From: Rhododendron vialii
Lineage: Eukaryota > Streptophyta > Magnoliopsida > Ericales > Ericaceae
NCBI RefSeq assembly: GCF_030253575.1
Contig: NC_080557.1
Span: 45,770,501 to 45,834,500 of the forward strand
Length of the DNA stretch: 64,000 nucleotides
Direction of reading: 5' to 3'
Numbering within the stretch: position 1 is the first letter of the stretch; the number at the start of each line of letters is the position of its first letter. A program made the position numbers and the translations under genes. The notes below the pieces were generated by a model, which saw nothing but the letters and a program-made list of their open reading frames with translations, ran no database searches and was not told where the DNA came from. Below are positions 34,535 through 63,955 of this stretch, one piece after another.

Positions 34535-34540
<6 letters not shown>

Positions 34541-34554
34541 TCTCTTCGAGCGCA

Positions 34555-36913: not shown

Positions 36914-39130
36914 AGTATGAGGAATTCAAAGTGAGGATCAATGCATTAGTTGCAAAGGCTCAAAAAATTGCCAGAAGAAGGATGGGTCATGCAAGATGGG
37001 GCCCCATGGCTGAGAAACAACACGCGGGATCACCCTGGCATGATTCAGGTTACTATCGAAATAACCATCATCTGTTTCCTTTTTATTTTCGAAAGAAAAA
37101 CAAATGGGTTCTTTGATCTTCCTTCCGGAAGATGAAAATGGAGATGAGATTGCTTCTTTTTTCTATAGGTTTACCTGGGAAGTGAGGGAGCACTCGATGC
37201 GGAAGGGCAGGAGTTGCCAATGCTTGTGTATGTTTCTCGTGAGAAGCGGCCTGGCTATCAGCACCACAAGAAAGCTGGTGCAATGAATGCTATGGTGAGT
37301 TCCCTTTAGAAAGTATGATCCTTGATTTTGTGGTCTGGCTCCTCCCTATTTCTGATCAGTGATCACCAGTATTGTATTAAATGCAGACGGATTAAGTGAT
37401 GTCATATGACATAGCCAGATTCAGTAAATTGCTTTGTGAGAGCGCCACGATTGGGTAACCTTGATGATTTGGCAATGTTTTTTGATGATCACTGCAGGTT
37501 TGTGTGTCAACAGTTCTTACCGTTGCACCTTCATGTTGAACTTGGATTCTGATCACCACATCAACAACAGCAAGGCTGTTAGGGAAGCCATGTGCTTTCT
37601 AATGGATCCCCAGCTTGGAAAGAAGCTCTACTACGTCCAGTTCCCACAGCGGTTCGACGGCTGATCTTCACGATAGGTACGCCAATCACAATGTTGTTTT
37701 CTTCGATGTAAGTCCACTTGCTCCTTATCAAATTTCCATTACCATATGTAATACTGCATTCTCTACTAGCTATCAAAAGTTTGATGCAGGATTCCTCTTC
37801 CGATTTCCAAAGTTCTGCTCCTGTCCCAATTCACTCTTAGTTGCACAATCATGCCTCAAAATCTGTGTTTTTCTTGATTTCCATCACCTCATGCAACTGA
37901 AAGTGCATTTAGGACAAGCCCAGGGATTTTTGGCGGGAATAGGAATTGCTTGCCCAAAAATTTCGTATGCAAAGCTCATGAGTACATGGTTGTTCCTATG
38001 TCTATAGATCGACATGAGAGGCCTAGATGGGATCCAGGGGCCAGTTTATGTTGGGACCGGATGTGTTTTCAACTGGCAGGCACTATATATGGTTATGATC
38101 TCCCAGTGTCTGAGAAGCGGCCAAAGTTGACATGTGACTGCTGGCCTTCATGGTGCTGCTGTGGTGGTTCAAGGAATCCCAAGTCTAAGAAGAAAGGATT
38201 GAAAGCTCTGATTGGCCTCCGGAGGCATGTACAACAAGAAAAAAATGATGGGGAAGAACTACTCTAGGAAATCTTTGTCTGGGCCTGTCTTTGATCTTGA
38301 AGAGATTGAAGAAGGGTTTGAAGGTTTTGATGAGTTGGAGAAATCATCGCTCATGTCTCAGAAGAATTTCGAAAAGCGGTTTGGACAGTCACCGGTTTTT
38401 ATTACCTCCACTCTAATGGAAAATGGTAACAGCACTTCACTTATCAAAGAAGCCATTCATGTCATTAGTTGCAGATAATGGGACAAAGAGGTGAGTAGTA
38501 TTTATTGGTTTTCTGTTTTGATTAGATTATTTCCAGGACTTAAATGACTAGGATGGCTCATTGAAGTAGGTATTTTAGAATTTAGAGGCAATTCCAAGAG
38601 TTCAATTATTAAAAAATGTCTCAATGAAGTTTGACAGCTAAATTTTCGTACTATTTCACTTCCAAGAAACACATTTTACCGTGCAATTTTATTACAACTA
38701 TGAAGCCAGACTGCCGCACAGAAGTTCAATGCTTCTACATACAATTCATGAGATTTTGACTTGGGTTAGACATTCACAGATTGGATGGATATATGGATCG
38801 GTCACAGAAGATATATTGACAGGATTCAAGATGCATTGTAGAGGGTGGAAGTCAGTATACTGCATGCCAAAGAGACCAGCTTTTAAGGGGTCAGCTCCAA
38901 TCAATCTCTCAGATCAGTTGCACCAAGTTCTGAGATTGGCTCTTGGGTCTGTTGAGATTTTCCTTTGTCGTCACTGCCCACTTTGGTATGCCTATGGGGG
39001 AAAATTGAAGTGGCTTGAGAGGCTCGCTTACATTAACGCCATTGTCTACCCATTCACTTCGATTCCTTTACTTGCCTAGTGCACGATTCCTGCCATTTGC
39101 CTTCTGACCGGAAAATTTATCATCCCTACT
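36914..39130 (+). pseudogene. CESA7-like secondary-wall cellulose synthase pseudogene
   Basis: Plus-strand pieces follow plant cellulose synthase from the catalytic domain onward: [117 protein letters not shown] and [20 protein letters not shown]. The CDCWPSWCCC region and the EEIEEG...[19 protein letters not shown] block point to the CESA7/IRX3 class. Introns are retained in homologous places (after MIQ at ~37049; 37294-37496; 37710-38006; before IGWIYG), so it arose by genomic duplication. Breaks: frame changes in the first exon, in the DxD-region exon and near 37670, a stop replacing the segment after VISC, a stop after SIPLLA, and loss of everything after FIIPT. The QxxRW motif reads QVLRL. 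The N-terminal zinc-finger half is also missing. Confidence 0.9.
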
Positions 39131-41936: not shown

Positions 41937-42032
41937 TAAAACATCTACTTAATTCACCATTATAGAAATATAAGTACTTACAATAAAACAACTAAATTCT
42001 GATAAAAAAGAACGAAATCCGATGGCCTAAAT

Positions 42033-42560
42033 TGTAACGACCCGGATTTTTGACCCAATTTTTTTTTAATACAAATTTATATTGTTAAATTTTTAATTCA
42101 ATAACTAATTAGATTGAATAATTAAAATATATTATTACGTGTATAATTGATATTATTTGCATTATTGTATAAGATATGTATTTAAACTTTAAATATACAG
42201 GAAATCAGTGATTCATATTCATCTCTTATCTTTCCTATCTAAACCCTAAGTAGAACTCTATTCAAACTAACTCTTCACTTCTCTATCTCTCATCCTATAC
42301 ATAAAAGCGTCCAGATACATTCTCACCATGTACATACATGCGTCCACATACATTAGAATTGAAAACTCCCCCCAAATGTGGCACTTGTCCCCCATCTTTT
42401 TATCATTATCAGTATCACTCTCCTTCCTCATTCCACCACTTCTACACTTATCCTCTCACCTTCTCACTACCTTATTCTCTCTCATTATACATACCCACAT
42501 AAATCCGAATATTGAACACCAGTATATTATTTTACTCTCAATTATATTGTTGAGTCTAGA

Positions 42561-42594
<34 letters not shown>

Positions 42595-45500
42595 GTGGCC
42601 GTAGGTGTGTGCACACCGCCGCTGTGGGCCCTGTTGGAGTGCCACCGGACGTTGCCCCGAGATTTCAAAACCACCATGGTGATCTACGGACACCGTACAA
42701 CACTTATCCGAACTTAGAATCGCGTTTGAGGTAGTTTTCCGAAAACCCAAAACCTTTATCTGCATTTTAATGGAGTTACTTAGATTTAAAGTTTATTGAA
42801 GATGATGATCTGCTGTTAAATTGTTAATTTATTTTTAGTCCTGTTTATATTAAAATTTAATCTGGTTGTGCTGGAATGATTAGTGTTATACCCTGTGAAA
42901 ATTTATGATCGTTTAACAAATGTTTGATTGTGAAATTATTATTGATGTTGCATTGTTAATTTGTATTTGAGTGGACGTTTACGTGTTTAATAAATTATTG
43001 GGGTAGATAAATGTTTATGAAATATTAACAAGAATATTTTACTAGTAAAAATTTATTTAGATTGTAAACAAGAAATATTTTAGATTATATATTAGTTAAT
43101 CTTTAACTTTAATAAATATTAACTAGAATAGCCTCGCATAATTTTATTGTTATAAAAATCTCATATTAATATTTAATATAGTTAGTAAATACTAAATTTA
43201 GCAATAAGTATTTTTCAATAAAAATTTGTTTGTAAAATCTATGAATAATATGATAGTTAAAGAAAATGTTTAAATAGTAAAAATGTTTTATACAATTTCT
43301 AAATGAGAGAAATAGACTTAATTTTAAGTGTAGTAATTAATTGTTTGACTGAATATTATTTTGTTACTCGCATGATAAATTCTATGACATGATTAATTTT
43401 ATCGCATGGTTATGTGTTGTTAGTACTTTTAGTTGAAATGTTGAACCGTGCGATATTTTGTTGTGGCTGTAGATTGTACAAATAGGTTCCCTGGGTGGTT
43501 ACGAGTAGTGACTCATGTAGACGATGTTAAGTAAATGGAAATTGATAAAGTGTTGGAAGTGTGATTGTGTGGATTGTGATTTGAGCCATGGTGATGGCAA
43601 GGGTAACCTATGGGGCCCTGTGTTGAAATGGGTTACCTGAGGGGCCCGGTGTTGTGACACTAACGTATGATACGTCATGGGAAGTTTTTCTTCGAGGAAG
43701 AGAATGGGTCCCATGAGACGGTTATAGTTAGTGAGTCGCTAATGTATGATACGTCATGGGAAGTTTCTCTTCGAGGAAGAGAATGGGTCCCATGAGACGG
43801 TTATAGTTAGTGAGACGTTAATGTATGATACGTCATGGAAAGTTTCTCTTGGAGAAAGAGAATGGGTCCCATGAGACGGTTATAGTTAGCGTGGGGTAGT
43901 GGATGTCCGACCCTAATGTACGATACGTCATGGGATGACTCAATCCTCTTGTTATGGTCTTAAGTGAGAACATACTCGGTACATAACTTAGATGCGCTCA
44001 CCTAGGACCCTGGTGCAGGACAAGCAAGAGGAAGGGTGGACCCATGGGACGATTGTAATTAGTGGATGTGGGAGGAAAGGATCTCGCGGAGAGAATCCTT
44101 AGATTACATGTAAGATGATGGATAGTAAAGAAAAAGACGATGTGTTATTATTTTGTACCTTCGGTGTATTATGAATTATTATATTGTTGATCTGCATATT
44201 GTGGTATTGGGTTTTAGGATTTCTACTTAGTGAATTATCACTCAGGATACGTTTGTATCCTGGCAAATCGTTTGCTTCGGCGTTCAATTTGCCAGAGTGT
44301 GCAGGATTTCACAGTGGAGCAGTTGATACAGGTGGGACCCCTGAAACGGAGTCTGGGCCAACATTGCTTGGAATTTCGTGTCAAAATTAGAGTCGCTCTG
44401 GAGTTGCTTTTATTAAGTAAATGTACATAAATTTTTGTATTATTTTGAAATTGTAATTTTTGTATAAGGATAAATAGGGGTCTAATAGTTTGTAAAATTT
44501 AGTGTATCTTTGGGTTAATGCTTCCGAAATTCTTTGGAAAATCGGGGCGTTACAGAATGGTATCAGAGCATAGGTTGAACTCTCGGCCTTGGGTAGATTG
44601 GGTAGATCACTTTCCGAGAGCGTAAACCTGAGTTACTTGTTGTGGTTATTACTTATTTTAAATCTAAACTATAAGTATTATTTAGCCGTCGTTCAACTTA
44701 GACTTCGAGAGCGTACTGTGAGAAAACATAGGTCTTACTTGCTTGACTTTTATGTGATACGTTAATTATTTTTTTTTTTTTGTTGAGTGCAATGTTGTTG
44801 TTTGACTCCAATGGTTTTAAGATCAAAAAATAATAATTTGGAAACTATAATTTCATGTTTGTTGTCAAAATTAATTTTCATAAAAAACTTTTATTTAACA
44901 TACAGTTGCTCATCGTCCTTAATCTCTTTGAACAAATATCTTTTTGGAATCTAAATATATTTTTCAGGAATTCTTAAAATGGATTCTTTTTCAAAAACTT
45001 TAAAAAAAAAAATTGAAAATATCTTTTATCAACGTAAATGAGTTATAAATTTTTTTTATTGTTTTAGTTTGAAATTTCTAAACACACAATTTCGAGGACG
45101 AAATTATTTTAAGGAGGATAGATTGTAACGACCCGGATTTTTGACCCAATTTTTTTTTAATACAAATTTATATTGTTAAATTTTTAATTCAATAATTAAT
45201 TAGATTGAATAATTAAAATATATTATTACGTGTATAATTGATATTATTTGCATTATTGTATAAGATATGTATTTAAACTTTAAATATACAGGAAATCAGT
45301 GATTCATATTCATCTCTTATCTTTCCTATCTAAACCCTAAGTAGAACTCTATTCAAACTAACTCTTCACTTCTCTATCTCTCATCCTATACATAAAAGCG
45401 TCCAGATACATTCTCACCATGTACATACATGCGTCCACATACATTAGAATTGAAAACTCCCCCCAAATGTGGCACTTGTCCCCCATCTTTTTATCATTAT

Positions 45501-45651
45501 CAGTATCACTCTCCTTCCTCATTCCACCACTTCTACACTTATCCTCTCACCTTCTCACTACCTTATTCTCTCTCATTATACATACCCACATAAATCCGAA
45601 TATTGAACACCAGTATATTATTTTACTCTCAATTATATTGTTGAGTCTAGA

Positions 45652-45685
<34 letters not shown>

Positions 45686-47646
45686 GTGGCCGTAGGTGTG
45701 TGCACACCGCCGCTGTGGGCCCTGTTGGAGTGCCACCGGACGTTGCCCCGAGATTTCAAAACCACCATGGTGATCTACGGACACCGTACAACACTTATCC
45801 GAACTTAGAATCGCGTTTGAGGTAGTTTTCCGAAAACCCAAAACCTTTATCTGCATTTTAATGGAGTTACTTAGATTTAAAGTTTATTGAAGATGATGAT
45901 CTGCTGTTAAATTGTTAATTTATTTTTAGTCCTGTTTATATTAAAATTTAATCTGGTTGTGCTGGAATGATTAGTGTTATACCCTGTGAAAATTTATGAT
46001 CGTTTAACAAATGTTTGATTGTGAAATTATTATTGATGTTGCATTGTTAATTTGTATTTGAGTGGACGTTTACGTGTTTAATAAATTATTGGGGTAGATA
46101 AATGTTTATGAAATATTAACAAGAATATTTTACTAGTAAAAATTTATTTAGATTGTAAACAAGAAATATTTTAGATTATATATTAGTTAATCTTTAACTT
46201 TAATAAATATTAACTAGAATAGCCTCGCATAATTTTATTGTTATAAAAATCTCATATTAATATTTAATATAGTTAGTAAATACTAAATTTAGCAATAAGT
46301 ATTTTTCAATAAAAATTTGTTTGTAAAATCTATGAATAATATGATAGTTAAAGAAAATGTTTAAATAGTAAAAATGTTTTATACAATTTCTAAATGAGAG
46401 AAATAGACTTAATTTTAAGTGTAGTAATTAATTGTTTGACTGAATATTATTTTGTTACTCGCATGATAAATTCTATGACATGATTAATTTTATCGCATGG
46501 TTATGTGTTGTTAGTACTTTTAGTTGAAATGTTGAACCGTGCGATATTTTGTTGTGGCTGTAGATTGTACAAATAGGTTCCCTGGGTGGTTACGAGTAGT
46601 GACTCATGTAGACGATGTTAAGTAAATGGAAATTGATAAAGTGTTGGAAGTGTGATTGTGTGGATTGTGATTTGAGCCATGGTGATGGCAAGGGTAACCT
46701 ATGGGGCCCTGTGTTGAAATGGGTTACCTGAGGGGCCCGGTGTTGTGACACTAACGTATGATACGTCATGGGAAGTTTTTCTTCGAGGAAGAGAATGGGT
46801 CCCATGAGACGGTTATAGTTAGTGAGTCGCTAATGTATGATACGTCATGGGAAGTTTCTCTTCGAGGAAGAGAATGGGTCCCATGAGACGGTTATAGTTA
46901 GTGAGACGTTAATGTATGATACGTCATGGAAAGTTTCTCTTGGAGAAAGAGAATGGGTCCCATGAGACGGTTATAGTTAGCGTGGGGTAGTGGATGTCCG
47001 ACCCTAATGTACGATACGTCATGGGATGACTCAATCCTCTTGTTATGGTCTTAAGTGAGAACATACTCGGTACATAACTTAGATGCGCTCACCTAGGACC
47101 CTGGTGCAGGACAAGCAAGAGGAAGGGTGGACCCATGGGACGATTGTAATTAGTGGATGTGGGAGGAAAGGATCTCGCGGAGAGAATCCTTAGATTACAT
47201 GTAAGATGATGGATAGTAAAGAAAAAGACGATGTGTTATTATTTTGTACCTTCGGTGTATTATGAATTATTATATTGTTGATCTGCATATTGTGGTATTG
47301 GGTTTTAGGATTTCTACTTAGTGAATTATCACTCAGGATACGTTTGTATCCTGGCAAATCGTTTGCTTCGGCGTTCAATTTGCCAGAGTGTGCAGGATTT
47401 CACAGTGGAGCAGTTGATACAGGTGGGACCCCTGAAACGGAGTCTGGGCCAACATTGCTTGGAATTTCGTGTCAAAATTAGAGTCGCTCTGGAGTTGCTT
47501 TTATTAAGTAAATGTACATAAATTTTTGTATTATTTTGAAATTGTAATTTTTGTATAAGGATAAATAGGGGTCTAATAGTTTGTAAAATTTAGTGTATCT
47601 TTGGGTTAATGCTTCCGAAATTCTTTGGAAAATCGGGGCGTTACAG
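42033..47646 (+). mobile_element. Gene-less LTR retroelement with 2.5-kb LTRs (Ty3/gypsy-type ends)
   Basis: Two direct LTRs, 42033-44555 and 45124-47646 (2,523 bp each, offset 3,091 bp), flank only 568 bp of internal DNA. The LTR begins tgtaacgacccgg and ends cggggcgttacag. A primer-binding site, tggtatcagagc (initiator-Met type), starts 2 bp inside the 5' LTR boundary at 44558. A polypurine tract, aaggaggatagat, directly precedes the second LTR. The 5-bp target duplication is taaat (42028-42032 and 47647-47651). The internal part encodes no gag or pol, so this is a non-autonomous (LARD-like) unit that looks structurally whole. I noticed one base difference between the LTRs (in attcaataa[c/t]taattag), so the insertion is very recent. 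Confidence 0.93.
43661..43897. repeat. Three 79-bp tandem repeats inside the 5' LTR (same in 3' LTR at 46752-46988)
   Basis: Units start at 43661, 43740 and 43819, each opening with taa(c/t)gtatgatacgtcat, and a partial fourth lies at about 43915. Each carries gatacgtcatgg, whose reverse complement ATGACGTATC contains the TGACGT core bound by plant TGA-type bZIP factors. Also repeated are gagaatgggtcccatgag and cggttatagttag. This is an array in the LTR, probably in its promoter/enhancer part. Confidence 0.85.
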
Positions 47647-47692
47647 TAAATTGAGTTTTAGGAGTGATTATTCAATACTCTTGGAGTTCCGC

Positions 47693-47853
47693 CACGTGAG
47701 ACTTTATGGACATTTCCTATCACATATTGGTCTGGGTTTCATCACTGATGTGTGGTGAAGAGGGTTCTAAAGCATCACGTGGCGTGCTCTAACAACAACT
47801 GCCGATGTTGTGAATCATACGTGATACCAAGCAGATCACGTGCACACCACGTG
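47693..47853 (+). promoter_or_regulatory. Copy A promoter with four CACGTG boxes
   Basis: CACGTG cores at 47693-47698, 47776-47781, 47837-47842 and 47848-47853. The last two form the sequence atcacgtgcacaccacgtg. They are conserved, with the same 11-bp start-to-start spacing, in copies B and C. These are G-boxes, typical sites for bHLH (PIF/MYC) and bZIP factors. The region starts only about 50 bp downstream of the LTR element. Confidence 0.65.
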
Positions 47854-47899
47854 TTCCACAGTTCGCTAACAGAAGCGCCAACTGTACAAAGCGATCAGA

Positions 47900-48042
47900 A
47901 ACCGTTTTGTGAGCTGGAAATTGAAAAGCTCGCTTGGCGGGAAACAGAAAACCGAAGCAAACCTATCCAATTCTCTCTCTCTCTCCACATTCAAGACCAG
48001 CGAGAAGCAAAACGACTCCTAGTTGAAATCAATCACCAAGAG
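47900..48042 (+). other. Copy A 5'UTR exon
   Basis: It contains gcgggaaacagaaaaccg, a short (TC)7 tract at 47972-47985, and ends atcaatcaccaagag|gtaatt. The same exon with the same donor occurs in copies B (to 55234) and C (to 61723). There is no ATG, so it is untranslated. The left boundary is approximate. It would be spliced to the exon starting at 49061. Confidence 0.65.
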
Positions 48043-49077
48043 GTAATTCTCATTCGGTTTCATCAATTGATTATCGCGTTTTCCTCACATGCACGACTGT
48101 TTATCCACATCACTCTATTCTTGATGCAATCTGCCCAGTAATCGAACTTCGTTTCTTACTATTAATCGCACAGGAGTGTTGCATTTGATGTTTTATCGAG
48201 TTCTACAATTGAAATTCTGAATGTTATGTTTCAAGAAAAACTGCATCCGTACACTGTAGTTTTATTGAATTTTGATTTTAGGGCCCGATGACTTCCATTC
48301 AAGAACAGTATCGCTTATGTGTTCACGGACTTTGGCGGTTGTTGGATATTGTAAGCGATCGGTTTATTTTCTCGAAACCTGATTGTATCGTCATATCATT
48401 GTTCTAGAGTTTAAAACCTCAGGCACGTGATTTTCTGTGGTCCTGGGGTGTGGCCGAGACGTTGTAGTTAAAGTATAGAAATATTTTGTTTGTTTTTCAA
48501 TTGCCGACGATCAGAACTTGTACGATTACGGTGACAGTCATTGTGGTTATAAATATTAATTGTGTTGTAAAGATAAATTTCTTTGGTATTTCTCAGTTTC
48601 TCGCCACTAAAGAATCGTCTCCTGTCAGGATTTTCCGGTCTCTGATGAATTTCAATTTACGAATATGCAATTGATATTTTGTTAATTATGTTGCAAGAAC
48701 ATTATATTGAGGCATGCGACTGTACATTACACAGTGAGGGTTGTCTTGTGCTGCTTTATAATAGAGTAGAGAAAGAAAGTTCTCCATCAGTGTTTTTGTG
48801 TTGAAGGGCTTTGTCGGAAGAAGGTAGACACCGGCTGGGTTTTCCATTTAGTTTTCCCGTTAAGAATACTTACATAGACTTGCATAATTTCTGCATAATA
48901 AAGTATGAACTCCAACCTTTTTCGCAGGAAGGGGGCACTTTAGATATAGGAAAATCCGCTTTAGTATTTCTCTCATCCTGCCTATCGTTGATAAAATATT
49001 CTTGAATGCTGACATGCAACATTTATGTTGTTTTAATGTGTCTACTTTCTTTATCATTAGAGTACAGGCATCAACTA

Positions 49078-52000
49078 ATGGATGGAAATAGGCGTAAGGA
49101 AGAAAACAGGGAACTCATGGCGGAACGTATTAGACTTCACATCGCGGTAAGTCCATGTTCCATTTGTAAGGAACAACTGATCTAATGATCTTGTAGGCCA
49201 TGGGCTTGCAGTCTTGTGTAACTGCACGCCAAGCATCTATTTAACTAAATTTGTAATTCTGTGGCAGAATTCTGAACCATCTTATGGGGGAACTTCCACA
49301 GACCCTAAAGCTGATGATGCAATGGAAAATGAAGAGGGTGAGCAAGCACCCGCTGCTGGTGACGACCTGGATAACTCTGAGACTTGTGTTAGTTTTCCAG
49401 ATAATAGTGCACAGTCAGAGCAGTCATCGCAAGAACCCACTGCAGGTGATGACCTGGATAACTATGAGAATAGTTTGAGCTGTGCAGATAATAGTGGACA
49501 GTCAGAGAAGTCATCTGACTCTGAAGATATCCCAGATAACATTGAGGAAAATGACACCTTCTACTTGGAATTGCAAGAAGTAAATAATATCTCCAAGGCA
49601 GCTTACAAGGAACTCATGACATTGGCTGTTGAAGCAAAAACTTGGGTTGTAGCTACCCCTGCATTGGGTTCACTTGAAGAATTCCTTCAAATGTTTCGAA
49701 GTCCACCCCCGCCAGGAAAGAGAGTTGAACATTCCATTCAGAGTGCAAGTGTTCCAACTGACCCGGAACTTCTGGTTTCTATAATGATGGATGTGGTGAG
49801 ATTCATCAACTGTTGTAGGAAGTTATGTTGGTCTAGTAATTAATTGTCGTGCCTTTGAAGAAAAGATTCCAGTAAGCTCACTTATAGGCGTCTTAATCTT
49901 ATCTTACATGATTGCATCTGATTTATGGAAATAAGCCAAGCTAATTCTTACCTTCAATTAGTTGTTACAGTGCAAATTCTCCAAATGTTCTCACAGACTA
50001 GGGAAACTGAGAAGTTAATACAGTTCTCTCTTCTGCCCCTTTCAGTAATATGGAGTTATCTCTTCTGCTCTTTGTATTGCCCATTTGCTACATAATTGAC
50101 AGGGCCAACAGCACCGAAATAACTGCCACATCTGCTTGCACTAAATATGAAGTGTAAAATGATCTAGCCTTAAAATCTCAAAGATTTATGTTTTGCCTTG
50201 TTTATAATGTTACTCCTGCAAACAAATAGAGTGCTGGTTTAAGCCAGAATCCAGGCTTGATGGAAGATAGTTTGTTAAGTACTGAAAATGTTACCCAGGT
50301 CCTATAAGTAGATACCAAACAAGCATGAAAGCATGCTCATATTTTTTTCTCTAATTTATCGTTGGCCAAGTAACTGACAGGTTTAAGATTTGAGTCTTAT
50401 ATCTCTCCCACATGTTTTTGTTAGAACTTTGTATATTATTTCTGTTCATTCAGGATAGATGGGCTTCGTCCTTTTCCCACATTGTCTCTCGTGAATCCGT
50501 CCATGATCCACCTGATGTGTTGCTAAAACTGACAAAGTATGAGGAAGCAATCAAATCCATACTGCTGGTAAGCTTTCCGGCAGCTCATAGAGTTCGGCAT
50601 GCTGGATTTCCCACACCTTGGAATTTTCCTCATAGTATACATGTTGTCTTATTCATTTGACATGTCTTAATCTGCCTAGTCATTTTGGGTTTCAATTGTG
50701 TTATCTAATTCTTGTTTTTATTTTCTATAGGTGGACGCGGAGTTCCAGTTACCAACTCCACTGGTTCAATCAAGAAAATTCTGTCTCTTCAGATGTCTCA
50801 GGAAGATCCTACCTGATGTATGGGCCATTGTTGACATATCAAGAGATTATTTCCCAGGTGCAGTTGTTTCTGGATTGGAAAACATATTCCGGAAGAGGCC
50901 ATCAGGACTATTAGTCAGGAGGAATGGAAACTATTCACAGGTTAGCAAAATGAATTGTTGTGGTCTTTCTCTGTATATCAGTATATGCATGTTGTATGTT
51001 TATGAGGAAGATGACTGTACAGAGATTATGTTTCCTAAGCAGTTTCTCTTTATATTTCAGCTTTTATCATCTGTCATGTTATATCGCTTTCCTTGCTGAT
51101 TTTTTCCAACTTATGCACAGGTTATTTGGATTGAGAATGTGGAAATTCCTGAAGTTCAGTCAAAAGATGGCATCTACCTTGGGTTGATCAATTCAAATTT
51201 AGCATTCTCTGCAAAGCGCTGGGTTGATGCATTGATATGGAAAATAAAACGAGATTTTAGCAGCTTCTCTCAAGTGAAGATGAAAGTGAACCAAAGAGGT
51301 TTGTTAGTTTCCATTCCATATAGGAGTTGCTCAGGAAAAAGTTGACCATAGTTGTGAAAATGCTCGAATGGTTATATTCTGTTTAGCACGTCACATCTAA
51401 AATTTGAGTGCGTTAGCTAATACTATCACTATTACTGTTTAACTTTAACACAAATTTATTTTAAAGGGCACGTCACATAATAAAGAACGGAGATGCAATC
51501 ACGTAGGCTTCTTATTTTGTAGAGTACGCCGTAATCCGGTACTCCCAAGTTTTTGAGGCACATATCACATCATTTCCACTACAGAAGGCATTGAATCCAA
51601 AACTGGGTATCATACTAAGACATGGCATAAATATTTGAATGTATTGTTTTGAGATAAAAACACTGCTGAAACAAGAAACATTTCCCTTTTAACGCAAATT
51701 TTATTCCTGCAGCTGCCACTCACCTGCTGAATTTAACTGAAACCATGAGGAAGGTTTACTTAGACATTGTCAGTGAAACCCCTGATGAAGAAAAATGGGT
51801 TACTTTGTCCAACAAGGATGTAAGAATTTTGAGGAACTCCGATGATCATGCTGACTCGGGCGTAAAGAATTACATAGCTGTGACGAGCTTTCGGCTTCAG
51901 ACAAAACCCATCTCACTTACTGATTTTCTGGTAAAGAAGAATATGGATATACAGGTATATACTTGAAACTAATGCTCTCAGAGAAACTCCACTCCTTACT

Positions 52001-53321
52001 TAAATCTCTACTCAAACTCACATTTGAGCAAAAGCTTCATTCCTTCTCAAATCCATATCAAATAGAGTTTTAATAAAATCCGTACTGTGAGACTCTAATC
52101 GTTGTTCATGTTTTGAAGGCCTTTTTGGGTCTACCAAATTTGCAATTATACCATTAATGAAGCTTTTATTCAAAATTATGCTTCAAGTTGAGTTCGCCCA
52201 TTGGAGTACCTCAATTTTTACGCGAATTTGGGTTGTAATTAAGCAAGGGCTGGAGATGGACTTTTTATTCAACAGGTTATAGGAGTTTCTAACTCATCCA
52301 CACATTGCAGTGGCCTACATTACTAAACGTGGAGGAGCCAGAAGAAGTGATCAGGTTTTCCTCGGAGAGTAACTGCATTACTCTACATAAGAAAGTAGTT
52401 TTCCTAGCCGAGACCACACAGGTTCCATTAGCGCAAGTTTTTTAAAGGATGCCTCATTAGTAAATTTCATCCTGGAGTTTCCTTTATACTGATAGAGTAC
52501 TGCTGTCATTTGACAGGATCTTGAATATCTGTTACAAGAGAATTCAATGGATGGATTTTGTTTCTTCGTTACTTCAACACCAATTAGCAAAATAGATGTC
52601 GACATTGCTCTCTTGGTCGGTAGTTCGGGACTTGTTCCGGTGCAGCCTTCAGGATTTGCAATAATGCCTGATGGTTTCCATTCTAATGCTTCCTTAGTGA
52701 CAGTTGCCATCCAACAACAACTTAACGTTCTGGACACTGATCAAGCAATTCTTATAATGTGTGATCTTGTTAACACCATCGTTAAAGAGATATCTGAAGA
52801 AGGTAACTTTCTCCCTAACGTCTACCTTGAGAAATTCTTCTTCTTCTTTTTTGTCAAAATGAGATTCATTCAAGAACCTAAAGACACATGTGGGCAAATA
52901 GATACTTGCTATGTCATTGGTCCCATCTGATTTGTCCTAAAGTTATTGGTTGGATTTTAAGGTTCATACAAGCCTTTGGAATTGTGGATTCTAAAAGATA
53001 TTATTTGGGAGTTTATTTCAACAAGCACAATCGTAAAGGAAATTTAATGATCAATTCATACAAGAAAGGCTTCCCTGGAGTGTATATTTGAAACCAAAAG
53101 CGTGTTGAGCCTGCATCTTCTTGTATTTGACCTGAAACAATGACGCCATTTTTCGGTTCAAATCGCATGAATTTTTTTGCTGGTTACTTTTGTATAATGC
53201 AGCTACTGAGTTGTCTATCACCTGTGGAGGACCAGTCTCAATTTATGATGTGGCCATTCTATACTTCAACACTGAAAATGTTTCTGAGAGTGCCTGTATG
53301 GTTATTGCTTTGTTGTTCTAA
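49078..53321 (+). CDS. HD-ZIP IV-derived START/SAD protein lacking the homeodomain (copy A)
   Basis: Nine coding exons join in frame to 618 aa: 49078-49146, 49268-49795, 50454-50567, 50731-50940, 51121-51298, 51713-51954, 52311-52421, 52517-52802, 53203-53321. All are GT-AG and phase-matched. Residues 1-23 (MDGNRRKEENRELMAERIRL...) look like the end of an HD-ZIP zipper. Residues 24-128 are acidic with an internal duplication. A START domain runs from about 129 to 350 (SKAAYKELMTLAVEAKTWVV; AEFQLPTPLVQSRKFCLFRC; VWAIVDIS; RPSGLLVRRNGNYSQVIWIE; LAFSAKRWVDALIW). The HD-START-associated domain runs from about 370 to 600 (TSFRLQTKPISLTDFLV; VQPSGFAIMPDG; SLVTVAIQQQ). No homeodomain exon was found between the 5'UTR exon and the first coding exon. 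In HD-ZIP IV proteins START binds lipids and SAD mediates interactions. Without DNA binding this protein could act as a dimer partner or competitor; that role is inference. Confidence 0.88.
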
Positions 53322-54875
53322 TTATGTTCATGTTTTACTTTTTTTGCAGCTAGCAAATTAAGCAACACACCAAGCTGAACTTTGTTCTTTGACTGATTTG
53401 AGAAAATGAAGACGGTTCTTGTACATTCCAAGCTGCTTTCTATATCCACATGACTCGAAAGTTGAAACTCGTCCTTTTTCTGCAGCATATGATGTCAATA
53501 CAGTAGTCATTCTTGGTATATAAAATACAGGTGGATAGTGAAGCTGCATTTGACTTCTGTAGGTGTCAAACACTCAAACTTGCTTTCAGATATATAGCAG
53601 ATATGTACGGGTAATAAGAAAGAAGCAGCTTTTGAACTGATATCCTGTGATTCCATGATATTTTTTTATTTTTGAAACCTGAATCCATGATAGATCAATT
53701 CTCGTTGGGATACTTGCGGGGAAGCAATTCTTCTCAATCTTCACTCTATCTTGGCGCTTTCAGTCTTCGTTCTCAGAATTATAGTGACGTTTGATGTTTT
53801 TTTATAATTACTTTCACGCTCTTGTTTCTAGCAACTTAACTGAGAACGTGGATTGAAAAAGGGGATTAGGAGTAACTCACTTACCTGACGACATAGAGGA
53901 CCTACCAATCATTCATAGGTATAGTAGTAACTACTAAATAACCTCTCCGAGCAAGCAAGCGAGTGAGCTAGTAGTAAGCAAGCCAAAGCACCCCGACAAT
54001 TCCTTTCAAGTCTCCAACGCAATCAGATTCAAAGAGAGGGAGAGGCCAACGAATTATAAAAAGCAGGTGGCCGGTAAAGAGTAAGAAGCGAAGCGAAGCT
54101 GAAGGAAGGCGAGCGCGGTCAGATAAAGAAAGGGTCCGATGAGGGGTAGGGACAGGCCATATATCCCTCTTTGTGTGAGTCTCAGGTTTGTTGACGTTCA
54201 GGATGCCGCTTATGTCATAACCTCCGAGTTCCCAACAGACTAGTCCAATGGCGTAGCCAGAATCTGATATCAGCGGGGGCACAATCCAACTCATACAACT
54301 TGATTTTGAAAAAAGAAGAAGTACTCCGTATATATCTATCTCCTTTCTAAGAATCCGACAATACGCCTAATTTGAGTTTCTTTTGAACTATTTCTTCAGG
54401 ATCACTATTAAAAAATTTGTTCAACTATCACATTATCTTAGAGTAGCAATTAAATTTCTAGTTCTAAACGAGTTGTTGATAGATTTAACAAGAGAAAGAA
54501 GAGAGAACGTGTGAAGGAGCCTGACTTAACTTGAATTTTGTGACGAGATAGAAATTGTAATTTTGTAAACACGTGGTGGGTTGGGGGCTAAAGTTTAGTT
54601 AATGGAGGTTTGCCGAGAGTAATTAATTATATATAGTGGTCCTGGAGCACCGTCATATGGTGCCCAACACTCTTCTCCATTACATATTTAGGTGAGATTC
54701 AAAACAAAAAGTCTTGAGCCTTATATGAATACACGATGGAGAAGGATATGTTAGCATAGCGTGTGATGGTGTATTTGAAGTACTCAATAATTTTTTCGTG
54801 CTTTGAAGTATGAGGTTTCTAGCTCAGGTCCACACCAGCAGCGGATGTTAGCATAGCATGTGATGGTGTATCTTT
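53322..54875. other. Spacer between copies A and B
   Basis: It starts with the probable 3'UTR of copy A. No further gene was recognised; the minus-strand frame at 53968-54294 shows no family resemblance. Some phrases (ggcgtagccagaatctgata, agcgggggcaca near 54248) resemble edges of common plant repeats, but no complete element could be bounded. Confidence 0.45.
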
Positions 54876-55148
54876 ACCGGCTAATTTGTCGCTACGTAGA
54901 TAATCGGGAGTACCACGTAAGTAATGCTCAATAATAACTCATCTTTAAGAGGGTGAAATGTGTCACGGCCGCTGATGCGTTGGATCCTACGGCTCCCCTG
55001 ATACCAATCAGACCACGTGCACTCCACGTGTTCCACGGTATCACTATTACCAAGCTGCCAACTATATTAACCGCTCAAGAACCGTTTCGTTAGCAGGAAA
55101 TTGAAAAGCTCGCGTGGCGGGAAACAGAAAACCGAAACAAAGCAATCC

Positions 55149-55183
<35 letters not shown>

Positions 55184-55369
55184 CAAGACCAATGAGAAGA
55201 AAAACTACTTCTAGTTTTAATCAATCACCAAGAGGTAATCCTCATTCGATTCATCAATTAATCATAGCACTTCTGTTATATTCAAGACTACGTATCCACA
55301 TCACAATATTCTCTGATTCAATCTAGCCCGTAATCGAACTTCGTTTCTTACTCTTAATCGCACCACAAG

Positions 55370-57659
55370 TGTAACGCCCCGAAAATTCGAAGACATTAAA
55401 AATAATAATGAAAAGATTATTTTCACAAAAGAAATTCATAGATTTACTGCGTCACCATTTCAAAAGCAAATGTCATTATTTTACAACCGTTTCGAATAAA
55501 TCAAAATATTACAATATCCAAATAAACTTAGAAGCTTTCAAAATAAAGTAGACTTAAATTAATCAGAGCGACTATGCGCACGGAAACCAAAGTTTTCAGC
55601 TTCTTCCTCGTTAGGATTTAACTCTATCGAATCGTACGACACTTCTGTTCCATCTTCGGTACCTGGCGTTCGAGTTACCAGGGCAACATAGTACCGTGAG
55701 CGATGACGCTCAATAGCCAAAACCCACCCGAACCCATAACTTACAAGCAGCAAGAAAATATAATTGAAGCGCATTGACATAACATAAAGAGAGAACAATT
55801 AATCATTTTATTACTATTCTTCAACCTAAGTGAAATCTCGAATCTTATCCACAGATCCGTTCCCACCCATAACCTCTGGCACAAACACTGGTGTGGTCCG
55901 ACTCCCCTTTTCTAGATCCAGATGAAAGATACCTAAGTTATATACCTGGATATCCCATCCGCAACCATAAGTTCGGATAAAACTTCACCGGCAACGCTTA
56001 AGCGCCGTCTAGCCCAGGTTGAACTTCACCGGCAACGCTCAAACGCTGTCTAGCCCGGGTTGTGACGTAAGCACAATGCCACCTTATGTCCCGTCCCAAC
56101 ATCCGAGAGCCGACCACCACCATGCCGTACCTAGGGTTTGAAAATCCATAAATTCAACAGATCACCACCAATCAACCTCCAACAATTCAAATCTCCGGAT
56201 TCCTTGTCCGGAATCCCAATCACAGTCTCTCACTTTATTAAATTTTTTCCGTTAACCATATTTCAACGTCTAAGATGATAAATCCGCACATCGCAACCAT
56301 CGCAGGATCCTATTTGTCCAGTCTATCAGTATAACAACATTTCACACAGTTCAACATTTTTCGAAACATGCTCATGGTCTATAACAACAATTAAATTCGC
56401 GATAATAACAAATCATGCTATAAGGCTAAACACGGAATAATTTATCATACGTTAAATTTAATCATGCAATTTAATAATCCAACTAAACATACCAACATGT
56501 TAAAACTATTTAATCGTGCGATAACACTAATCATGCGATTAAAACAAATTAAGTTATTCCTTTTATTTCTTTTTCTTTTTTTGAAACTAAAGTCTACGAT
56601 TTACTCTTAATCACCTCGGGACTTGTAATCTTAGCCTTTAATACTCAAGGGTAAGATTTATGAGTTAATCTATTTGAGGGACTAAACTGCAAATATTCTA
56701 AGAAATCTTCAAATCCAGTGGCTACTATTTTCTGGAAAAACAGTGGGTTTCGATCGGTTCAACCGGTGGCATCGGAATCGAAAACTAATTAACGTCGGGG
56801 CTTGATATTAACTTTTACCATTCAAGAGTTAGATTTACAAGCACTTAAATCACAAGGGGTTAAACTGTAATTAATCCATATATTTTTCTAAAACCCAGCG
56901 ACTACTGTATTATTCGGAAAAGAAAACAGGGGTGGGGGGGGTTTGGCCGGACTCGACCGACGCCGTCGGGTTCGATTATAATCATGCCGAAATGCTAAAA
57001 TCAATACGGAACATAACATATATTTAGGGAGGTGAGTTCGGACTACCTCTCGTCCGGCGAAACAATTTTCGGAGAGATTCGGTGGCGGGTCGGAGCGGCG
57101 GTAGAACTCGGTTGGTGGTGACCCGGTTAATGGAGATGACGATGTACGGTAGTGATTGGAATGTACGGCGGCGGTCGGATTCCGGTGGTGAAGAGATGGA
57201 CTACGGTGGTGATGCTCGGGGTGGTGATGGAGGTACACGGCTGGGGTTGGAGAATGGAGGAGTGGTGGCCGGCTGAAATTTCTCTCCCTCTCTATCTGCC
57301 GAAATGTGTATAGCCTGGGAACCAGAAAATGAAATGGAGAAGGCGGATATAAACTTGGGTTTAGTTTTGCACGGGGGCTAATACCCAATGGTTAAAAATG
57401 AGCTGTCAACGCTAGAGGAAAATAGGGAGGGAAAAGGGGATTTGGTCTCTCCTCTCTCAGCCGAATATTTTGAAGGAAAAGGTGAGGGTTTGTTCCGGAA
57501 CAACACACGCACACACTACTAAAATTACTCGCTGGACACGCACACACAATCAATTACAGAATAAAATTTGGTGTGCCGGAATAAATAATTTTTTCGAACA
57601 GAAATATTATTTTTGTTTTGATAATAATTATTATTTATTAAAAAATACAGGTCTTTACA
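55370..57659 (-). mobile_element. Solo LTR, about 2.29 kb, gypsy-type ends, in copy B intron
   Basis: In the plus direction it starts tgtaacgccccgaaaattcg and ends acaggtctttaca. A 5-bp duplication, acaag, flanks it (55365-55369 and 57660-57664). Read on the minus strand the end is ...ttttcggggcgttaca, like the LTR end of the element at 42033, so it belongs to a similar family in reverse orientation. There is no second copy, primer site or internal region, hence a solo LTR. It contains an imperfect duplicate of cttcaccggcaacgct (about 55984 and 56025). Confidence 0.85.
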
Positions 57660-57918
57660 ACAAGTCCTGCATTTGATGTTTTTTCGATTTCTTGATTTGA
57701 AATTCTGAACGTTCAGTTTCAAGAAAACTACATCCGTAGTTTTCTTGAACTTTTGATTTTAGGGCTCGATAACTTCCATTCAAGAACAGCATTGTGTATT
57801 CACGAACTTCGATGCTTATTGAATATATTTTAGCGATTGGTTTATTTCCTTGAAACCCGATCGTATGTCGAAATTTTATTACTGTTTCAATGTTTAAAAC
57901 CTCAGAAATGTCATTTTC

Positions 57919-60525
57919 TGTTGGGATTATGCCCGGTAATCCCACCCGCAACGGAAGCGTAACAAATTAACAAAAACGAAATCACACAAAAAGAACACAC
58001 AACCAAAATACGTGGTTCCTCAAATTCGGGTACGTCCACGGGAGAGAGAGAAATCTTCCACTATATGAAAAATAGAGATTACAATCTGAGATGTAAAACC
58101 CTCCCCGAGCTCCTAACACTTAGCTCTATACAATGTTTTACACTCATCCCCACAACTCTATTTTTCTCTCACATCTTTTCTCCTCTCACCTCCTGGGTGA
58201 CGTATCTGGCAACCCCCAAAGGGCTGCCCTCTTTTTTTTTCTTTCTCACACTCGGCACACATGCACCACTTCACTTAAATAGGAATAAGAGAGGAATCTA
58301 CACACTTAGACTCTTCATATCCCAAGTATCACAAATGCTCCTTGGGACTTTTCAAGCACAGCCGGCTAATTAAAGAGAGGATTCTAGAGGCAAACAGCCA
58401 ACCCATTATTCACTTTTCTTTTTCTTTTCAAACTGCATTTAATGTGGGAAAACCCCAACAAACACCCCCTTTCCCCACAGAAAATGCACCCCTTTTGCTC
58501 GGGCACCTCGCACCCCATCACTGCGTGAACGTCTAGTTATCCGCAACTTGCCTATTCACCGGATCAATCATAGAACTAGCATCGCTTACACTGCCCCCAC
58601 CATCCGTTCACAGCGCCTGTGTCATTCCTCTGAATGTATCCTTGCTGTGCTCGGTAGTTGTGTCTGATCTCGAACGCCCGTGCCTAATCACAAAACACAA
58701 TCCATGACCCTATCATCCTCCTCGTGCATCTCAAATCACAACTGCAACTCTCAATGATAGGCCTTCCAATTGAACCAGACTGTCTCCGATCATCGTCAAT
58801 CATCTTCGCAAACCATCGCTATAGTGAGCGTCTGTGTCACTACCAACCCGAGTGTATCCTTGCTCACTAGCTCCGCGCATGTTTGCCCCGATCAACCTCC
58901 GATCCCTGCAAGTCTGTTCTATCAATCTTTCATTTTTGCCACTTCCCTAAGCCTCCTGCCACTCATCATTAGCTCTCCCCAGGTCACCTCTCTGTCACTC
59001 ATCCATCATCGTTCCGATTCCTGGCTTCCCAGCATCTCCAAACCGATCTATTACTTACAGCAAGCGCCTGTGTCAGTTACTAGACGAGCAAACCCGCTCG
59101 AATGTAAAAGTCTCCTTGCTTGCTAGCTCATAACAGATCACCACAGAACATCCTCGCTGCTTCCAAGCCATTTTCCAACCCTAAACCAGCCTCCAAATAC
59201 CCGATTCCTGCTCAACTAGCGCAATCGCACCTGCCTAGGAGCCTCCAATCAGAAAACGGAGCGCACGGTTGAATCCGGAATGTCGAGATACTCAAAATCG
59301 ACTACTCACTCGCCAAAAAACGGAGTCCAAACCGCTCCGAAATCGCGAAAACAAATCTGACTGCGTGGCCTTGACCCTGACCCTGCTGATGTGACATTGC
59401 TGACGTGGCATCTGCTACACTGAATCATTTTCCTTGACAGCTTTTCCAACCCATCACATGCTGCCTACCCTTTTTCTTTTTTTCCTTTTTTTTCTTTCTT
59501 TTTCCTTTTCTCCTTCACGCACAGCCTGCCTACTCCGAGAAAAAGGAAAGCTCCCAGCGCGTGCACCACACCCGCGAGACTAGATCTGACGCGCCCGGCA
59601 CGCGTCACCTTTGACCGGCGCGTGCTTTCTCCTCCGGCCACTTCCGGGGACTTTCCAAGCACTCCCAAGATCGTCTCTTCAAGACGCATCTAACCCTGTG
59701 CTCCAAACTTCAATCCAAGGAACTACGAGTACGGGCTTTTCAAAAAACGTACCTCGCCGCCGCCTTTGACCGGCCATTGCCGTCATCTCCAAGCTCCTCC
59801 GGCGACGTGCTACACATATCCGTACTCGTCGAGACGAGACAAACACAACCCCGTGCTCCAATCTCGCATCCAACCACTCCTTGAACAAGCCGACCGCCTC
59901 TTCGCCGCGCGCCTCTGCCGTCTTCAACCGTGCTGTGCTTCTCCGGTGAACTCCCGATCTTCAACCACAGCTCTGATACCGGTTGTTGGGATTATGCCCG
60001 GTAATACCACCCGCAACGGAAGCGTAACAAATTAACAAAAACGAAATCACACAAAAAGAACACACAATCAAAATACGTGGTTCTCCAAACTCGGGTACGT
60101 CTACGGGAGAGAGAGAAATCTTCCACTATATGAAAAATAGATATTACAATCTGAGATGTAAAACCCTCCCGAGCTCCTAACACATAGCTCCATACAATGT
60201 TTTACATTCACCCCCACAACCCTATTTTTCCCTCACATCTTTTCTCCTCTCACCTCCTGGGCGATGTATCCGGCAACCCCCAAAGGGCTGCCCTCTTTTT
60301 TTTTTCTTTCTCACACTCGGCACACATGCACCACTTCACTTAACTAGGAAATAAGAGAGGAATCTACACACTTGACTCTTCATATTCCAAGTATCACAAA
60401 TGCTCCTCGGGACTTTTCAAGCACAGCCGGCTAATTAAAGAGAGGATTCTAGAGGCAAACAGCCAACCCATTATTCACTTTTCTTTTTCTTTTCAAACTG
60501 CATTTAATGTGGGAAAAACCCAAAA
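57919..60525 (-). mobile_element. TRIM-like non-autonomous LTR retroelement, 2.6 kb, in copy B intron
   Basis: Two LTRs of about 542 bp (57919-58460 and 59984-60525), opening tgttgggattatgcccggta, flank 1.5 kb of internal DNA. Orientation is minus: the complement of an initiator-Met primer site (gctctgatacc) lies at 59970-59980 beside the right LTR, and the polypurine tract (complement of aacaccccctttccccaca) lies beside the left LTR. Target duplication is ttttc (57914-57918, 60526-60530). The internal part has no gag or pol and includes a long polypyrimidine stretch at 59468-59515. The LTRs differ at several scattered sites, so it is older than the element at 42033. Confidence 0.9.
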
Positions 60526-60996
60526 TTTTCTGTAGCGGGGTGGGGGCGAGACATTGTTGCTCAAGTAGAGATATATATATCTATATATTTCTCGTGTTTT
60601 TTAATCGCTAACGATAAAGATTGTACAACTCCAGAGATAGTCTGGGTGATTATAAACAGCAGTAGTTATGAAGACAAAAAACCGCTGTCTTCGTCGCCAC
60701 CAAAGAATCGCATCCTGTAAGGATTTTTCCGGTCCTTGATCGAATTTCGATTTTATATCATGAAATTCATATGCTGTTAATTATGTTGCAAGAAAGTTTA
60801 TACCGAGGTTCGCAACTCTTAGCTAGATTGCACATCAATGAGGGCTGTCTTGTGTTGCTTTATAGTATTGAGTAGAGAAAGAAGGTTCTCTGTTAGTGTT
60901 TTGCGTTGAATGACTTCGGCAGAAGTAGGTAGACATTGGATGGGGTTTTTCCTTTTAGTCCAGCCAATTTGGATAGTATTGTTTCCGTTCGGTTTT

Positions 60997-61360
60997 AAAT
61001 GGGTACCACAAAAATGATTCAAGCCGCTTATTATTCTTAAAATGTTTTTTACGGGTTGATGTAAAAAAATTAGCTTAGTTCGATGTTTGGTTTTTATGCT
61101 CTCCTCATTTAATGCTTGCCCATTTAATAGGCACCAAACCAGGACCAAAGAGGAGTGGTTTTTCTTCTTTTCTCTTTCTTTCCTCAATTCCCAAACAGAC
61201 CTTACTATTTTTCCATTCTTAGATCATTTTTCCTCAGTATTTTTCATGTGACATTGTCACATTGCTACGTGGTACTCCCCGCAAATAAAATATCGTCACT
61301 ACGTTTTGACTCCTTGCCGTCCAACCTCAAAACAAAAGTGAATGATAATATCTCTGCCGG
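60997..61360. other. Spacer between copies B and C
   Basis: Short AT-rich spacer without a recognised gene. Upstream homology of copy C to copy B begins at about 61358 (gccggctaatttgtggctac). Confidence 0.5.
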
Positions 61361-61488
61361 CCGGCTAATTTGTGGCTACGTAAATGATCGGGAGTACCAT
61401 GTAAGCAACGCTCGATAATTACTCGTCTTTTAAATGTGTCACAGCCGCTGATGTTTTTAATCCTACAGTCGCCTGGTACCAAGCTGAT

Positions 61489-61525
61489 CACGTGCACTCC
61501 ACGTGTTCCACGGTTACCAAGCTGC
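61489..61525 (+). promoter_or_regulatory. Copy C promoter: CACGTG pair
   Basis: CACGTG at 61489-61494 and 61500-61505, start-to-start 11 bp as in copies A and B, followed by ttccacggttaccaagc and a TATA-like aactatataaacc at about 61525-61538. Confidence 0.65.
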
Positions 61526-61587
61526 CAACTATATAAACCGCTCAAGAACCGTTCCGTTAGCTGGAAATTGAAAAGCTGGCGTGGCGG

Positions 61588-61615
61588 GAAACAGAAAACC
61601 GAAACAAAGCAATCC

Positions 61616-61671
<56 letters not shown>

Positions 61672-61723
61672 ACGTTCAAGACTAGCGGAAAGCAAACTAC
61701 TAGTTTTAATCAATCACCAAGAG
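61588..61723 (+). other. Copy C 5'UTR exon with long (CT)n
   Basis: Same exon as in copy A, with the CT tract expanded to about 25 units (61618-61668), ending ccaagag|gtaaat at 61723. It contains no ATG. Confidence 0.65.
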
Positions 61724-62974
61724 GTAAATTCTCATTCGATTCATCAATTCAATCTAGCCCGTAATCGAACTTTGTTTCTTACTCTTAATCGCACCACAAG
61801 TCCTGCATTTGATGTTTTCCGATTTCTTGATTTGAAAATCTGAACGTTCAGTTTCAAGAAAACTGTATCTGTAGTTTTCTTGAATTTGATTTTAGGGATC
61901 TATAACTTCCATTCAAGAACAGCATTGTGCATTCACGAACTTCGATGCTTATTGAATATATTCTAGTGATTGGTTTATTTCCTTGAAACCCGATCGTATG
62001 TCGAAATTTTATTATTGTTTTAGTGTTTAAAACCTCAAGGAATAGCATTTTCTTGCGTTTTTATGAACAGTAGTTGTTATGAATAGAAAAATCGCTGTCT
62101 TTGTCGCCACTAAAGAATCGCTTCCTGTCAGGATTTTCTGGTCCTTGATCAAATTTCAATTTTATGTTATGAAATTCATATGCTGGTAATTATGTTGCAA
62201 GAAAGTTTATACTGAGGTTCGCAACTCTTAGATTGCCCATCAATGAGGGCTGTCTTGTGCTGCTTTATATTGAGTAGAGAAAGAAGGTTCTCTGTTAGTG
62301 TTTTGCCTCGAAGGACTTCGGCAGAAGTAGGTAGACAATGGATGGGGTTTTTCCTTTTAGTCCAGCCAATTCGGATAGTATCTTTTCCGTTCGGTTTTAC
62401 CCCAGGGGTATTCAGTCTAGCTCTGTATAAAACACAATTCTACTAGTTAAAAGCCGAGTATCATTTAACTTTCAGTTCGGGTTTAGGGTTTAGGGTCATT
62501 TGGATATCATGAATGAGGCTTTGTGTTGTTGGAAATGAAATACATGACACTTAGTTTTGGTTACTTGGGAAAGCGTATTGATACTCAGAACAGTAACAAA
62601 ATAGCGTACCACCTTGTAAATATTCCCACGTTGCTGGATTAAATAACGGCTCATGACTTTGTTGTCATCTCAACCACATTGAAGCTTCGGGTTTTGGTAT
62701 CATTTATCAAGGCATTTGAGTTTCTCACAATTTATAAGATTATTATTATTATTTTTTGCATAACTTCTGCATAATAAAGTATGAACTCCAAACTTTTTCG
62801 CAGGAAGGTTGCAGTTGAGATATAGGAAAACCGCTTTGGTATTTCTCTTATCCTCTTGTTTATTGCAGACATGCGACATTTATGTTGTTTTAACGTGTGT
62901 ACTTTCTTTGGCGTTAAGAGTACAGGCGTCAACTAACGGATATAAAGAGGCGTAAGGCAGAAAACAGGGAACTC

Positions 62975-63955
62975 ATGGCAGAACACACGGTTAGTCCATG
63001 CTCCATTTCAAGGAACAACTCTAGACTATGTGACCATATTCAACCTATTTGCAGGCCATGGCCACGTAGTCATGTGTAACTGGCAGGCCAATTTTCTACT
63101 ACTTCACTAAGTATGTACTTCTGTGGCAGAATTCGGAACTATCTTATGGGGGAGCTTCTGCGGACCCTAATGTCGCTCCTGCAATTGAAAATGAAGAGGC
63201 TGAGCAAGCACCCGCTGCTGGTGATGACCGGGTTAACTTTGAGAATAGTTTGAGCCTTGCAGATAATAGCGGACAGTCAGAGCAGCCATCCAACTCTGCA
63301 GATATCCCGGATAACATTCAGAATAGAAACAACTTCTTCTTGGAATTGCAAGAAGCAAATAATATCTCTAAGGCAGCTTACAAGGAACTCACGACAATTG
63401 CTGTCGAAGCAAAAACTTGGGTTGTTGCTACCCCTGCATTGGGTTCGCTTGACGAATACGTGCAAATGTTTCGAGGTCCACCCCTGCCGGGAAAGAGAGT
63501 CCACTGTTCCACTCACAGTGAAGTTGTTCGAATTCACCCGGATCATCTGGTTTCTATAATGATGGATGCGGTGAGATTCATCAACTCTTCTTAGGAAGTT
63601 AGGTTAGTCTAGTCGTATTAAACTGTTGTGCCTTAGAAGAATGGGTTCCAGCTAATTCTAGTAACAGACAGACTTGTCGGAAGATAGTTTGTTTAGTAAC
63701 GAAGATGTCACCAAACAAGGATGCTTGTATGTCTTTCTAATTTGATCGTTTGGCCAAGTAACTGACAGGATTGAGTTTAATATCTTACAACTCTCCCACA
63801 TGTTTTTGTTAGAACTTCGTATAATATTTCTTTTCATTCAGGATAAATGGGCTTCATCCCTATCCCACATTGTCTCTCGTAAATCTGTCCCTATCCCACC
63901 TGCTGTGTTTCTAGAGCTGGGAACGTTTGATCGTACAATCAAATCCATGGTACTG
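62975..63955 (+). CDS. HD-ZIP IV-derived START protein, copy C, 5' part (runs off window)
   Basis: Exons 62975-62989, 63130-63570 and 63842-63955 correspond to exons 1-3 of copy A, with the same phases and splice sites. The upstream ATG used in copy A is ACG here, so I place the start at the next in-frame ATG (MAEHT), 5 codons before the donor. Exon 2 has one acidic unit instead of two (NSLSLADNSGQSEQPS). It then enters the START domain (NISKAAYKELTTIAVEAKTW; ATPALGSLDEYVQMFRGPPL). Exon 3 reads DKWASSLSHIVSRKSV. The frame is open to the donor at 63955 and the gene continues past the window. No homeodomain sequence was found upstream (61724-62974). Function as for copy A. Confidence 0.8.

Follow-up and report, generated by a model that had tools for sequence, protein, structure and literature searches.

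The question raised by this locus is whether a START-domain gene that carries no detectable homeodomain is a working regulator or the remains of one. The HD-ZIP IV relatives of this gene (copy A) regulate leaf-surface and hair cells, and the sequence-only reading had placed it in a tandem family whose ancestor lost its DNA-binding exons, gained a new 5′ exon and was then duplicated. If copy A is functional, it would be a natural case in which the lipid-sensing and dimerising roles of HD-ZIP IV regulators are uncoupled from DNA binding, something so far addressed by mutant and deletion constructs (PMC9706426); if it is simply in decay, it is a commonplace transcription factor paralogue deprived of its DNA-binding end.

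The window, by which we mean the whole 64,000-nucleotide stretch of Rhododendron vialii DNA that was analysed, has ordinary plant genes in the neighbourhood of the family, as judged from long minus-strand frames for a Vps62-family protein (3095-4720) and a PPR protein (9088-11745). Exons matching PRP39 HAT repeats lie at 23139-25791 on the minus strand, a TOM22-like frame at 34498-34863 on the plus strand, and a cellulose synthase family gene or fragment at 37603-39079 (Pfam E 3e-58 for 38642-39079).

Nine coding exons of copy A on the plus strand (49061-53321) are predicted from the sequence to join into a protein of 618 residues. The frame begins with the ATG at 49078 and is uninterrupted up to the stop codon (53319-53321) that closes the final exon. 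Each of the nine coding exons has an AG acceptor, and each of the eight before the last has a GT donor. The features of copy A are as follows.

47900..48042, plus strand: exon 1, predicted non-coding, from the alignment of A with C and a donor word common to A, B and C
48282..48350, plus strand: possible extra 5′ exon, with plausible borders in A
49061..49146, plus strand: exon 2, with the start codon at 49078 and a zipper-like stub
49268..49795, plus strand: exon 3, acidic linker and beginning of START
50454..50567, plus strand: exon 4, START
50731..50940, plus strand: exon 5, START
51121..51298, plus strand: exon 6, end of START, with W341 in AKRWVDAL
51713..51954, plus strand: exon 7, PDF2-like C-terminal domain
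52311..52421, plus strand: exon 8, PDF2-like C-terminal domain
52517..52802, plus strand: exon 9, PDF2-like C-terminal domain
53203..53321, plus strand: last exon as first modelled, with an alternative acceptor at 53350

The 3′ end of exon 1 at 48042 is defined by its donor and the 5′ limit of 47900 is approximate; no ATG was found in 47900-48042. The candidate mini-exon at 48282-48350 was rejected, as its donor is not kept in copy C and it would add upstream ATGs to the leader, and this segment is probably intron rather than exon. Which last exon is used is uncertain from the sequence: the acceptor at 53350 is richer in pyrimidines than that at 53203 (16 versus 12 of 20) and would yield a protein of 588 residues ending in SKLSNTPS.

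Pfam searches identified two nearly full-length domains in the predicted protein. START spans residues 137-345 (E 3.1e-12; 46.7 bits against a cut-off of 22; profile positions 9-201 of 207), and PDF2_C, the PDF2-like C-terminal domain of HD-ZIP IV type that had been called SAD, spans residues 370-573 (E 2.9e-17; 63 bits against a cut-off of 27; profile positions 7-228 of 241), stopping ahead of both versions of the last exon. A third row, Dfp1_Him1_M, fell under its own cut-off, and there was no row up to E 1 for MEKHLA, the domain that follows START in HD-ZIP III proteins and in whose place copy A has PDF2_C. As a control we used a START-to-end segment and a homeodomain segment of PDF2, both as provisional sequences. 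The former reached 347.4 bits with PDF2_C and, over part of START, 147.8 bits, and the latter scored 70 bits with the Homeodomain profile; the copy A scores are thus far under those of this PDF2. Alignment of copy A with the provisional PDF2 segment gave 125 identities over 385 aligned residues and a score of 365, as compared to a maximum of 51 among 100 shuffles. A search of solved structures returned three rows up to E 1, none of them to START, the best being a TCF7L2 fragment (E 0.14) matched through the acidic linker; exon 9 alone returned no row, and a single-sequence structure prediction had a mean pLDDT of 32.1 and gave a useless model. Splice borders, open frame and Pfam thus agree on the nine-exon, 618-residue START and SAD protein that had been proposed, and the kinship of copy A with the START/C-terminal half of HD-ZIP IV proteins is supported at the level of sequence.

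The same profile searches found no homeodomain in the copy A protein, and because the control homeodomain was readily scored, a normal one would have been detected. The check with START and Homeobox profiles that the sequence-only reading had suggested therefore bore its architecture out. We also considered that copy A might be a standard HD-ZIP IV gene after all, with a homeodomain exon that had been overlooked because it lies upstream or is interrupted by an intron. The frame of exon 2 does run on upstream of the ATG as far as the acceptor at 49061, and it aligns there with a provisional zipper sequence of the kind that stands right after the homeodomain. However, the homeodomain words W[FV]x[NS]R[RK], FQNxR and QNRR were absent from all six frames of the whole window (a scan that would overlook a degenerate or intron-split domain), and Pfam searches of 47650-49083 and 60520-62942 in all forward frames found no homeodomain, the sole row being Spa1_C (E 0.27), under its cut-off. 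In addition, the predicted non-coding first exon is common to three copies and an LTR element lies beyond the first exon of A, so that we hold an overlooked homeodomain to be very improbable.

What remains at the N terminus is a stub that we tested as exon 2, including a few residues ahead of the ATG, joined to the opening residues of exon 3. Against the first half of the HDG11 zipper and its loop none of 1000 shuffles did as well, whereas the matches to other zippers were weak, being equalled by 33 (ANL2), 64 (PDF2) and 75 (GL2) of 1000 shuffles; this is a strong fit to one of four comparison zippers, all of them provisional sequences. The stub alone had no match in Pfam. The zipper-loop-zipper of HD-ZIP IV proteins has a CPxCGG motif in its loop, and these loop cysteines are missing from the stub. 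Counted from its ATG, exon 2 encodes only 23 residues, enough for about three heptads; with the cysteines missing as well, the stub would not be expected to dimerise alone. A zipper-like remnant fits an ancestor that, we infer, once had homeodomain exons.

Comparison of the window with itself (matches at E 1e-6 and of 60 bases or more) placed two further copies downstream of A.

54877..60997, plus strand: copy B, comprising the promoter and exon 1 (donor after 55234) with portions of intron 1
57919..60523, strand not assigned: LTR-type element within copy B, its terminal repeats identical at 518 of 538 aligned bases
61361..61723, plus strand: copy C promoter and exon 1, from self-comparison, alignment of A with C, and donor
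62919..62989, plus strand: copy C exon 2, 15 bases shorter than that of A
63130..63570, plus strand: copy C exon 3, from the alignment of A with C
63842..63955, plus strand: copy C exon 4, followed by the window end

Copy B had no match to coding exons 2-10 at these thresholds and is broken by two transposon-like inserts, the second of which, about 2.3 kb near 55375-57655, matches a gap in the self-comparison and is possibly a solo LTR. Copy C matches A piecewise from the promoter to intron 4 near the window end, the identity being 0.77-0.86 across exons 2-4 and 0.65-0.81 across the intron pieces. Its exons 2-4 are open over 208 codons, but the start ATG of A reads ACG in C, so that translation of C would have to begin at the next in-frame ATG, which corresponds to residue 14 of A. 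An in-frame 87-bp duplication in the linker of A (49342-49428/49429-49515 in exon 3) is absent from C. The C fragment alone had no match in Pfam; since the equivalent part of A had none either, this result says nothing about C. The claim of a tandem family thus stands insofar as copies of A exist, but only A is complete, B consisting of 5′ parts and C being cut by the window end; likewise, C shares the architecture of A in its open exons 2-4 and intact splice sites, but not in its start codon.

The order of events can be read in part from the 5′ end. Over 47795-48042, a stretch that takes in exon 1, A and C are identical at 185 of 221 aligned bases; the exon 1 donor in A reads CACCAAGAG followed by GTAAT, and CACCAAGAG followed by GTAA occurs in all of A, B and C, ending exon 1 at 48042, 55234 and 61723, respectively. 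Because the predicted non-coding exon and its donor are shared by all three, the new 5′ end predates the duplications, and because no homeodomain was found between exons 1 and 2 of A and C either, the loss would also predate them. Of the history that had been proposed, then, the shared first exon and the missing homeodomain hold, whereas the ancestral homeodomain exons can only be surmised.

A young LTR element occupies 42028-47646, ending about 0.25 kb before 47900, the placed start of exon 1 of A. Its 2.5-kb ends are identical at 2526 of 2528 positions with 563 bases between them, TGGTATCAGAGC, which we take to be a typical primer-binding site, directly follows the left end, and TAAAT was seen by eye at both outer borders. 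A tandem repeat at 46744-47026, its unit about 79 bases long, lies inside the LTR and is present in both LTR copies.

To what extent the copies have been under selection since A and C split was estimated from 208 aligned codons of exons 2-4. With dN of 0.183 and dS of 0.190, dN/dS was 0.96 (bootstrap range 0.60-1.63), and the differences numbered 27, 38 and 37 at the three codon positions. Neutral simulations in which transitions had their observed share of changes (52/102) gave a median dN/dS of 0.79 (2.5-97.5% range 0.50-1.32), and 78% of the runs were at or under the observed value. Because that value lies within the neutral spread and not below what drift would give, no purifying selection on amino acids is visible since the split, and constraint on the sequence of copy A appears to have been weak since the duplication. 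A refined regulatory function, as had been suggested for the family, is so far unsupported, since the A and C pair is without visible amino-acid constraint.

The reading frames tell a different story from the sequence they carry. Under drift, the region compared between A and C would be expected to have 3.2 stops, and 3.6% of runs had none. For the remainder of A, supposing that half of the distance between A and C lies on the branch of A, the expectation is 3.5, with 2.7% of runs free of stops. Both coding indels between the copies, 15 and 87 bases, are multiples of three. Frames thus seem better preserved than sequence, which would fit relaxed or diversifying evolution of a still-coding gene, or a very recent death.

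A dying or recently dead family, in which A is a young pseudogene or an unconstrained gene, B a 5′ relic and C a copy without the start of A, is accordingly a serious possibility, albeit one to which we give less than even odds. It would account for the dN/dS near one with no excess of third-position differences, for the loss of the ATG in C, for the reduction of B to 5′ parts with inserts and for the young LTR element close by on the 5′ side of A. It does not sit well with a nine-exon frame that is unbroken, for which the two drift chances multiply to about 0.001 (if half of the distance is on A's branch and the two parts are independent), with coding indels that are both in frame or with modelled splice sites that are intact in A and, so far as visible, in C. 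Diversifying selection on a fast-evolving gene, with a new lipid-sensing or partner-binding role, would explain why frames are open while replacement and silent changes have similar per-site frequencies, and the linker duplication present in A and absent in C would suit it; however, dN/dS does not exceed 1 and falls within the neutral spread, and the comparison is based on a single pair of copies, so we consider this quite unlikely. Copy A looks like a real gene and may be drifting rather than newly employed.

Whether a protein of this kind could act at all depends on START and the C-terminal domain. W341 of copy A, in the context AKRWVDAL, aligns with the tryptophan of the provisional PDF2 sequence in AKRWVATL, and we take it to be the published START tryptophan, an assignment that depends on that provisional sequence, in which 277 residues come after the tryptophan. 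The ligand-linked tryptophan thus seems to be retained in copy A. In one report (PMC10126025), the conserved tryptophan is located in the fourth START helix, the ATML1 substitution W471L weakens ligand interaction, the matching PDF2 residue is W463, and the START ligands of PDF2 and ATML1 are very-long-chain ceramides. Homodimerisation of GL2 and PDF2 needs START, as does the stability of GL2 (PMC9706426), and, in cotton, the GbML1 portion made up of START and HD-SAD binds GbMYB25 (PMC3645734). These published contacts, together with W341, make a competitor that works through START/C-terminal contacts possible. However, the zipper is named as the dimerisation motif in PMC10126025, and because A has no usable length of it, A may fail altogether to pair with the HD-ZIP IV proteins. 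Copy A might, at most, titrate HD-ZIP IV or MYB partners.

Our preferred explanation begins with copy A as, very probably, a strongly diverged HD-ZIP IV paralogue cut down to START and the PDF2-like C-terminal half. Its ancestor would have lost the homeodomain exon or exons at an exon boundary and then acquired the non-coding first exon, and local copying, one copy only partial, would have come afterwards. The protein may still bind lipid via START; without DNA binding or a usable zipper, it would act, if at all, by using START and the C-terminal domain to contact HD-ZIP IV proteins or the MYB partners of these, making A a weak lipid-dependent competitor. Taken alone, the mechanism of lipid-dependent competition is tentative, whereas for the whole chain of reduced paralogue, loss history and competitor action we put the probability at roughly 0.45. 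In its favor we counted the START and PDF2_C matches, the similarity to PDF2, the HDG11-like stub, the context of W341, frames open beyond the drift expectation and the in-frame indels; against it we counted the neutral-range dN/dS, the ACG in C, the weak stub matches to ANL2, PDF2 and GL2, the young LTR element near A and a zipper too short to use. The bolder proposal, that the local family consists of fast-diversifying, lipid-gated interferers made of START and C-terminal domain only, which tune epidermal HD-ZIP IV or MYB proteins without DNA binding, strikes us as rather unlikely.

Like the HD-ZIP IV proteins PDF2, ATML1, HDG11 and GL2, copy A has START followed by a PDF2-like C-terminal domain and, as judged from provisional sequences, a tryptophan in an AKRW context near the end of START and a stub that may be a remnant of the first zipper half. 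Unlike them, it has no detected homeodomain, a zipper of at most about three heptads and no loop cysteines. The Arabidopsis HD-ZIP IV relative At5g07260 was reportedly described by Schrick et al. in 2004 as a START protein without homeodomain, and its likeness to copy A is drawn from that description. On that description, homeodomain-less HD-ZIP IV relatives would already be a known kind. Printed names for the locus disagree: three papers place it among FWA paralogues with HDGs, PDF2 and ATML1 (PMC3704650), place it under HD-ZIP (PMC7479207) or label it oleosin in one table (PMC12021429). Searches of the open-licence literature by wording and locus name gave no direct report of homeodomain-less HD-ZIP IV proteins among the matches listed, and the accessible parts of PMC12652440 and PMC12295190 do not mention them.

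Rice offers a parallel in another class. According to PMC8455945, rice START-MEKHLA proteins without HD-ZIP exist, and loss of the HD-ZIP part is suggested for one locus, while gain from a minimal START is suggested instead for another. As described there, these are, like copy A, START-bearing relatives of an HD-ZIP class without the HD-ZIP part, but they are kin of HD-ZIP III and have MEKHLA instead of the PDF2-like C-terminal domain of copy A. KNATM and the little zippers are proteins without a DNA-binding domain that interfere with full-length relatives. Copy A would resemble them in binding full-length relatives without binding DNA; whereas those proteins retain MEINOX or the zipper, copy A retains START and the C-terminal domain.
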